Of a DNA stretch of 34,924 bases, positions 34,228 to 34,833 are shown piece after piece. Where the stretch lies: NCBI GenBank assembly GCA_013334925.1, contig JAAXWP010000003.1, positions 96,771 through 131,694 on the forward strand. The letters are read 5' to 3'. The first letter of the stretch is position 1; each line of letters starts with the position of its first letter. The position numbers were made by a program, and so were the translations under genes. Source of the DNA: Chlorobiaceae bacterium (lineage in GTDB: Bacteria; Bacteroidota; Chlorobiia; Chlorobiales; Chlorobiaceae). The notes under the pieces were generated by a model. It was not told where the DNA came from, made no database searches, and saw nothing but the letters and a program-made list of their open reading frames with translations.

Positions 34228-34724
34228 AAAAAAGGAAGCACCGCATACTCAAGTACTTCCTTTTTTTGGCTCCGCGAACAGGATTCGAACCTGCATCCCG
34301 ACTCGTCGGGATAACAGCCGAATGCCCTGCTCATAACTCTTACTTAAAACAAAAAAGGAAGCACCGCATACTCAAGTACTTCCTTTCTTTGGCTCCGCGA
34401 ACAGGATTCGAACCTGCATCCCGACTCGTCGGGATAACAGCCGAATGCTCTGCTCATAACTCTTACTTAAAACAAAAAAGGAAGCACCGCATACTCAAGT
34501 ACTTCCTTTCTTTGGCTCCGCGAGTAGGATTCGAACCTGCATCCCGACTCGTCGGGATAACAGCCGAATGCTCTGCTCATAACTCTTACTTAAAACAAAA
34601 AAGGAAGCACCGCATACTCAAGTACTTCCTTTCTTTGGCTCCGCGAACAGGATTCGAACCTGCATCCCGACTCGTCGGGATAACAGCCGAATGCTCTGCT
34701 CATAACTCTTACTTAAAACAAAAA
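34228..34724 (-). repeat. tandem array of four 123-bp units carrying truncated tRNA-Asn copies
   Basis: Four near-identical 123-bp units follow the intact tRNA-Asn gene. Each holds the tRNA 3' two-thirds on the minus strand: the second D-stem strand (GAGC), the anticodon arm with GTT, the T arm, and the 3' acceptor strand with GAGCCA. Each also has a copy of the terminator hairpin. CCA ends lie at 34267, 34390, 34513 and 34636. In each copy an 18-nt palindrome (arms ATCCCGAC/GTCGGGAT) replaces the 3' anticodon-stem/variable region. The 5' third (acceptor 5' strand and D loop) is replaced by unrelated sequence. Copy three keeps TAGGATTCGAACC as in the intact gene; the others read CAGGATTCGAACC. 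Confidence 0.85.
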
Positions 34725-34757
34725 AGGAAGCACCGCATACTCAAGTACTTCCTTTCT
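34725..34757 (-). terminator. intrinsic terminator of tRNA-Asn
   Basis: On the minus strand, immediately after the CCA end, AAAGGAAG and CTTCCTTT form a stem with a long loop (TACTTGAGTATGCGGTG), followed by TTTTTT. The same hairpin is repeated in every 123-bp unit, the last at 34231-34262. Confidence 0.75.
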
Positions 34758-34758
34758 T

Positions 34759-34833
34759 TGGCTCCGCGAGTAGGATTCGAACCTACAACCCTTCGGTTAA
34801 CAGCCGAATGCTCTACCGTTGAGCTATCGCGGA
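34759..34833 (-). tRNA. tRNA-Asn (anticodon GUU)
   Basis: A complete 75-nt cloverleaf with encoded CCA. The acceptor stem is TCCGCGA/TCGCGGA (34833-34827 with 34769-34763). The D arm is GCTCAACGGTAGAGC. The anticodon stem is TTCGG/CCGAA around CTGTTAA with anticodon GTT, and the T arm is GTAGG-TTCGAAT-CCTAC. The discriminator base is G, then CCA (34761-34759). The gene is transcribed toward the tandem remnants and the EPS promoter region, and has its own terminator. Confidence 0.95.

Follow-up and report, generated by a model that had tools for sequence, protein, structure and literature searches.

What has left four truncated copies of a tRNA gene, evenly spaced and each carrying the same hairpin, directly behind an intact tRNA-Asn(GUU) gene in a Chlorobiaceae bacterium? 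The copies lie near one end of the stretch of 34,924 nucleotides that was analysed (the window). Elsewhere in this window, at 18537-33681, polysaccharide export and glycosyltransferase genes adjoin a PAS histidine kinase, a SpoIIE-type phosphatase and an anti-sigma-type ATPase. The tRNA gene and the array are both on the minus strand, where the tRNA is followed by its terminator and then by four units of 123 bp. Tandem Repeats Finder placed the array at 34228-34791, with a period of 123, 4.6 copies, 97% matches and a score of 1072; the fifth, partial copy in this count is the terminator and the 3' end of the intact gene. That gene, in which the CCA is encoded, occupies 34759-34833 (ARAGORN; Rfam RF00005, 74.4 bits), and the region from 34834 to the contig end at 34924 is its leader, which probably includes the promoter given its conserved position. 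The intrinsic terminator of the tRNA (34720-34758), a hairpin formed by GGAAGTAC...GTGCTTCC and a run of T, recurs after each copy, and the fold predicted for the repeated hairpin is stable (-17.5 kcal/mol, z -5.6).

Each unit comprises a 59-nt fragment of tRNA-Asn, running from the end of the D stem (GCATTCGG...) to the CCA, and a terminator. The fragment lacks the acceptor 5' strand and most of the D arm. Numbered from the gene downstream, copies 1 to 4 are located at 34636-34694, 34513-34571, 34390-34448 and 34267-34325, and the terminators assigned to them by sequence at 34597-34635, 34474-34512, 34351-34389 and 34228-34266, the last of which is also the end of the array according to Tandem Repeats Finder. 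The units are joined by GTTTTAAGTAAGAGTTATGAGCA, at 34695-34719, 34572-34596, 34449-34473 and 34326-34350. Within each copy, the anticodon 3' strand and variable loop of the intact gene (ACCGAAGGGT) are exchanged for a hairpin, TCCCGACGAGTCGGGA. The corresponding 18-nt inverted repeat, ATCCCGACGAGTCGGGAT, is identical in copies 1 to 4 (34664-34681, 34541-34558, 34418-34435 and 34295-34312), and its central GA is not self-complementary. The units differ from one another at 0-4 of 123 bases: the unit that begins at 34355 is identical to the one at 34601, and 2-4 differences separate the others. The layout given in a preliminary description of this DNA, with four units at a 123-bp period that extend from the D stem to the CCA and have lost the acceptor 5' strand, was thus confirmed, as was the presence of one and the same 18-nt palindrome in the anticodon/variable region of all four.

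A sequence search found the unit at no second locus in its own genome, and the bare palindrome at three other places. Among 61 genomes, matches to the unit were obtained in every sampled species of the genus and of its sister genus, part of the matches, and nearly all of those outside the family, being the intact tRNA alone. Most species of the genus have partial copies at the same tRNA-Asn, with the same array position, palindrome and terminator; in three congeners (G002, G003 and G016), no such copy adjoins the tRNA. When copy number and sequence were compared among relatives, the arrays proved to be species-specific with a common palindrome, and their unit lengths are 68, 123 or ~490 bp depending on the species. 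G013 exhibits both 68-bp units and units of ~490 bp with an open reading frame. Its arrays of 68-bp tRNA-Asn fragments at L039 and L040 (end of G013:C14 and start of C17) reach the contig ends, so the true array is probably longer than the assembled one. In G001, G005, G007 and G025, 5' fragments are also found upstream of the tRNA, consisting of the leader and the 5' part of the tRNA and continuing via the palindrome to the T arm.

In many congeners, the copies flank a small gene of ~90 codons, and this reading frame encodes a GIY-YIG nuclease (Pfam PF01541, E=7e-13, and up to 3e-17 among relatives) whose alignment shows invariant Y, YxG, R, HN and E columns. Among solved structures, UPF0213 and SLX1 proteins come nearest, with weak E-values. 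Within the family, all close nuclease matches with a readable contig context are at tRNA-Asn or at its partial copies.

This association extends well beyond the Chlorobiaceae. Nuclease loci were collected by protein alone with profiles of these nucleases, a three-sequence alignment being used for the named genome collection. A tRNA on the same strand was found by ARAGORN within 800 bp in 87 of the 109 loci; in the other GIY-YIG branch, which served as a control, none of 30 loci had a tRNA within 1.5 kb. These nuclease genes are located at tRNA genes beyond chance. The neighbours in the 87 loci include 39 tRNA-Val(TAC), 21 tRNA-Asn, 6 tRNA-Ala(GGC), 3 tRNA-Gly, 2 tRNA-Asp and others; a few rare Cys, Ile and Gln assignments within the Val clade could be partial copies misread as tRNAs. 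Bacteroidota and Chlorobiota predominate among the named hosts; single loci come from Patescibacteria, Desulfobacterota-type, Armatimonadetes and other genomes, and many of these are metagenome bins. Near-identical GIY-YIG genes also occur in long tandem arrays, with repeats of ~364 bp at L154 (G089:C34:6988-9769), where no tRNA was called within the fetched stretch, and of 323 bp at L144 (G150:C1:1384625-1385516). At one locus of the control branch (L117, G046:C71), the last codons of the gene come from a dispersed repeat, GGATTCCTCGCTGCGCTCGGAATGAC, which continues downstream in several copies.

With regard to the tRNA fragments, 144 partial copies of the neighbouring tRNA were aligned in 74 loci. 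The 5' copies begin at the tRNA start or in the leader, and most of them stop near position 30, at the start of the hairpin, or at 50-66, in the T arm; the 3' copies start mostly between positions 1 and 23 and extend to the 3' end. The nuclease gene often ends inside a partial tRNA. Hairpins of the TCCCG type are present in 117 of the 144 partial copies, as opposed to 7 of the 1872 control windows taken from these loci; several copies of one locus are not independent, and at least one hairpin copy is found in 58 of the 74 loci. The hairpin replaces the anticodon arm in Val copies, its 3' side in Asn copies and the T arm in Asp and Gly copies, and sits in the D-arm region in Ser copies. In a minority of the partial copies, the hairpin is unrelated or absent. 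Solitary palindromes of the form ATCCCGACNNGTCGGGAT, whose two central bases vary freely, are also found away from tRNAs (L077-L096, e.g. G000:C16:3752 and G011:C1:622191), often nested in inverted repeats such as gtaggggc...gcccctac and gattctg...cagaat.

On the nuclease tree, tRNA identity changes 16 times, compared with a mean of 39.8 and a minimum of 35 in 300 shuffles. The tree, built from 83 columns, is poorly resolved inside clades and host relatedness contributes to the result; within these bounds, its clades are specific for tRNA identity. Chlorobiaceae, Ignavibacterium/Melioribacter-type genomes and family f18 are all represented in the Asn clade, from which three Asn loci of Desulfobacterota-type genomes are separate.

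No nuclease gene was found in the genome of the window, and a tblastn search of the window found no protein-level relic; the traces that were detected are at the DNA level. The junction GTTTTAAGTAAGAGTTATGAGCA resembles, over a short BLASTN alignment, the 3' end of the GIY-YIG gene of G011 and the point where this gene meets the partial tRNA, and is presumably homologous to that gene end. Past the array on the same strand, 34106-34216 probably derives from the spacer and the start of a GIY-YIG gene: its alignment with the gene start of G015 (L018) exceeded all of 300 shuffles and that with the gene start of G019 (L021) all but 1, and alignments with the gene starts of other relatives were weaker, several subjects falling partly within the shuffle range. 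Given these two traces, the 123-bp unit is likely, though not certainly, a deletion derivative of a nuclease-bearing unit, and we infer with moderate support that the units in the window descend from one.

The array is therefore best described, in our opinion, as the probable remnant of a small mobile element aimed at tRNA-Asn, of a homing type with tRNA homology arms, which has lost its gene, been amplified in tandem and decayed. The complete element would consist of a GIY-YIG gene of 80-90 codons, located on the tRNA strand just past the tRNA terminator, and of a 3' fragment of the same tRNA behind it, with 5' tRNA fragments upstream in addition at some loci. Its nuclease would presumably cut the cognate tRNA gene, and repair would copy the element in, while the tRNA part of the element would keep the gene intact. 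Distant hosts have no conserved sequence in common other than the tRNA, so that the partial tRNA could act as the homology arm in this step. The hairpin in place of one arm would then disable the spare copy as a tRNA; that it also shields the copy from the nuclease is a guess. Subsequent breaks and recombination between repeats would amplify the copies into arrays, and decay of the nuclease gene would leave units without a gene, as in the window. How an intact tRNA gene that bears an element escapes cutting is left unexplained by the homing model. A recoded tRNA allele that would shield element-bearing sites was considered; it looked striking in G098 and G101 but is not general, as the tRNA-Asn allele does not strictly go with the presence of an element.

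The terminators provide evidence for insertion. In family f18, the terminators between tRNA and nuclease are alike in G098, G101 and G146, which belong to two genera (scores 62-74), and that of G118 is related to them (scores 34-41). The distal terminator of G098, past the partial tRNA, scores only 16 against the proximal one of the same locus, and 36 and 42 against those of the element-free G084 and G116. This pattern supports the insertion of a segment comprising the tRNA 3' part, terminator and nuclease into a tRNA gene, of which it would be the expected trace. No clean pair of presence and absence within one species was seen among the loci compared. No copy that could carry the element between species was found in phages or plasmids, and the Chlorobiaceae nuclease had no match in a phage collection at E<=1e-5.

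The two terminators of a locus are alike in 31 of 54 loci, which is explained by plain tandem duplication. It could accordingly be argued that the tRNA 3' end and the terminator were duplicated by slippage or unequal recombination at the site, that no mobile element was involved and that the copies are decaying as pseudogenes. The near-identical units at a fixed period, with a terminator duplicated along with each copy, fit this explanation. Nevertheless, we regard it as unlikely, as it leaves unexplained the nuclease gene that separates the copies at many tRNAs of different identity, the hairpin in most copies (117/144) and the match of nuclease-side terminators across genera. Slippage surely contributes to the present copy number, and the tandem amplification suggested in the preliminary description is borne out by the near-identity of the units and by the species-specific unit lengths.

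The hairpin itself could instead be the mobile unit. TCCCGA palindromes would replace the tips of other hairpins, the GIY-YIG protein would be their mobiliser, as RAYT is for REP, and the tRNA copies would be a favoured target. Such palindromes are commoner in nuclease-bearing genomes (median 12.5 vs 3, p=6e-12, uncorrected for kinship; p=0.0017 within the family), and the frequent nesting of solitary palindromes inside other inverted repeats is in line with this proposal. However, the nuclease tree follows tRNA identity and not hairpin type, some partial copies have an unrelated hairpin or none, and the abundance of palindromes may reflect a habit of the genome. This explanation also appears improbable to us; given the higher abundance in nuclease-bearing genomes, the enzyme may still have a direct part in hairpin spread.

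A further possibility is that the units are small structured RNAs or tRNA decoys that are kept for their function. In favour of this, a terminator and a stable hairpin are present in every unit, and co-transcription with the tRNA is possible. The preliminary description had stressed that T-stem changes in three copies keep the stem pairable, as a hint of more than decay. The pairing was indeed found in three of the four copies (GCAGG/CCTGT, with one G.U), but copy 2 has GCAGG/CCTAC and thus a C.A mismatch, and the T stem is broken in many relatives as well. Only 18 of 30 distinct Chlorobiaceae copies have a T stem that can pair throughout, the remainder including copies that break off within the T arm. 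Selection to keep the stem is thus not clearly evident from these alignments, and the hint has lost its force. In addition, the tRNA part folds only slightly better than shuffled sequences (z -1.3), copy number and unit length vary freely, and some congeners have no copies. Among the repeat units and the tRNA, only the intact tRNA exceeded the cut-off of the Rfam covariance models. An RNA function was accordingly rejected, and we consider it very unlikely.

The att sites of tyrosine-recombinase elements, such as prophages or ICEs, usually show up as directly repeated tRNA 3' ends. Such repeats are present here, and the array could be read as scars of these elements at the tRNA 3' end. This is highly improbable, as the gene between the repeats in relatives, the only one seen there, encodes a GIY-YIG nuclease, and as neither the 5' fragments upstream nor the hairpin replacements fit such scars; no recombinase was found among the ten window proteins scanned. 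The integration scars put forward earlier were close to the mark with regard to repeated insertion at the tRNA gene, but the enzyme found at the site in relatives is a GIY-YIG nuclease rather than an integrase, and 5' fragments occur upstream as well.

The contig ends 91 bases past the tRNA, within an exact 127-nt overlap (34798-34924) with the end of contig C36 (G000, 12242-12368), which makes the exact copy number in the array less sure than its existence. This overlap stops at CTGTTA, and from the next base onwards intact copies and copies with a hairpin differ. It looks like a branch of the assembly graph, hinting at a second, hairpin-bearing 5' copy or at strain variation. An assembly artefact as the main cause, which this contig end might suggest, was rejected with near certainty because homologous copies occur in many independent assemblies, including the single-contig G011, G020, G098 and G150.

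More broadly, these loci might belong to a widespread and undescribed class of chromosomal mobile elements, a proposal that we make tentatively and with some doubt. It would be defined by a single-domain GIY-YIG nuclease that keeps, clade by clade, to one isoacceptor, would spread between phyla by means of carried tRNA fragments as universal homology arms, and would have one arm of its spare tRNA copies overwritten with a TCCCGA hairpin made by the enzyme or by its repair pathway. The class is apparently an undescribed variant of the free-standing GIY-YIG elements at tRNA genes. The open-access literature, to which our search extended, yielded no description of chromosomal tRNA/GIY-YIG arrays, and an earlier description in subscription journals is possible. 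Because tRNA genes are essential and occur almost everywhere, an element that uses them as insertion sites without disrupting the tRNA could pass between distantly related bacteria. If correct, this would account for many small GIY-YIG genes without a known role in Bacteroidota, for the tRNA fragments near tRNA-Val and tRNA-Asn and the breaks in assemblies there, and for part of a common hairpin repeat. The neighbouring tRNA suggests the target of each nuclease, so this minimal family lends itself to direct testing.

Several known systems share features with these loci. Downstream of E. coli tyrT, tandem units with the tRNA 3' end (rtT RNA) likewise follow a tRNA gene; to our knowledge, neither a nuclease gene nor a hairpin replacement is known there, and rtT had no Rfam match in the window. 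Dispersed short palindromes are likewise known from REP/RAYT systems and from Rickettsia, whose palindromic elements also occur in RNA genes. These involve another class of enzyme, whereas the hairpins described here replace a tRNA arm in spare copies. Mobile endonuclease elements such as those of fungal mitochondrial atp6 reportedly carry a replacement end of the host gene. They resemble the present elements in being inserted into a gene, supplying a new end and leaving the displaced end downstream; they differ in that they concern mitochondrial protein genes, rather than bacterial chromosomal tRNA genes with hairpin-marked fragments.

The closest parallel is SegB of T-even phages, a free-standing GIY-YIG homing endonuclease encoded in a tRNA gene cluster, which cuts within tRNA genes (PMC13096335; PMC2988022). 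Its cleavage motif, RAWTSGAAC (PMC13096335), corresponds in our reading to the T-loop sequence. SegB is phage-borne, unlike the chromosomal elements described here, whose proteins of 80-90 residues comprise the catalytic domain alone, whose clades each keep to one tRNA and whose partial copies bear a hairpin in place of an arm. The phage-collection search mentioned above revealed no close sequence relationship to the SegB family proper, though remote homology is possible. In both systems, a GIY-YIG gene lies beside tRNA genes, here often ending inside a partial tRNA. SegB also drives tandem amplification of tRNA and segB through microhomology between the tRNA 5' end and the segB 3' end (PMC13096335), and thus provides an experimental precedent for a GIY-YIG enzyme that cuts within tRNA genes and amplifies a segment comprising tRNA and nuclease.
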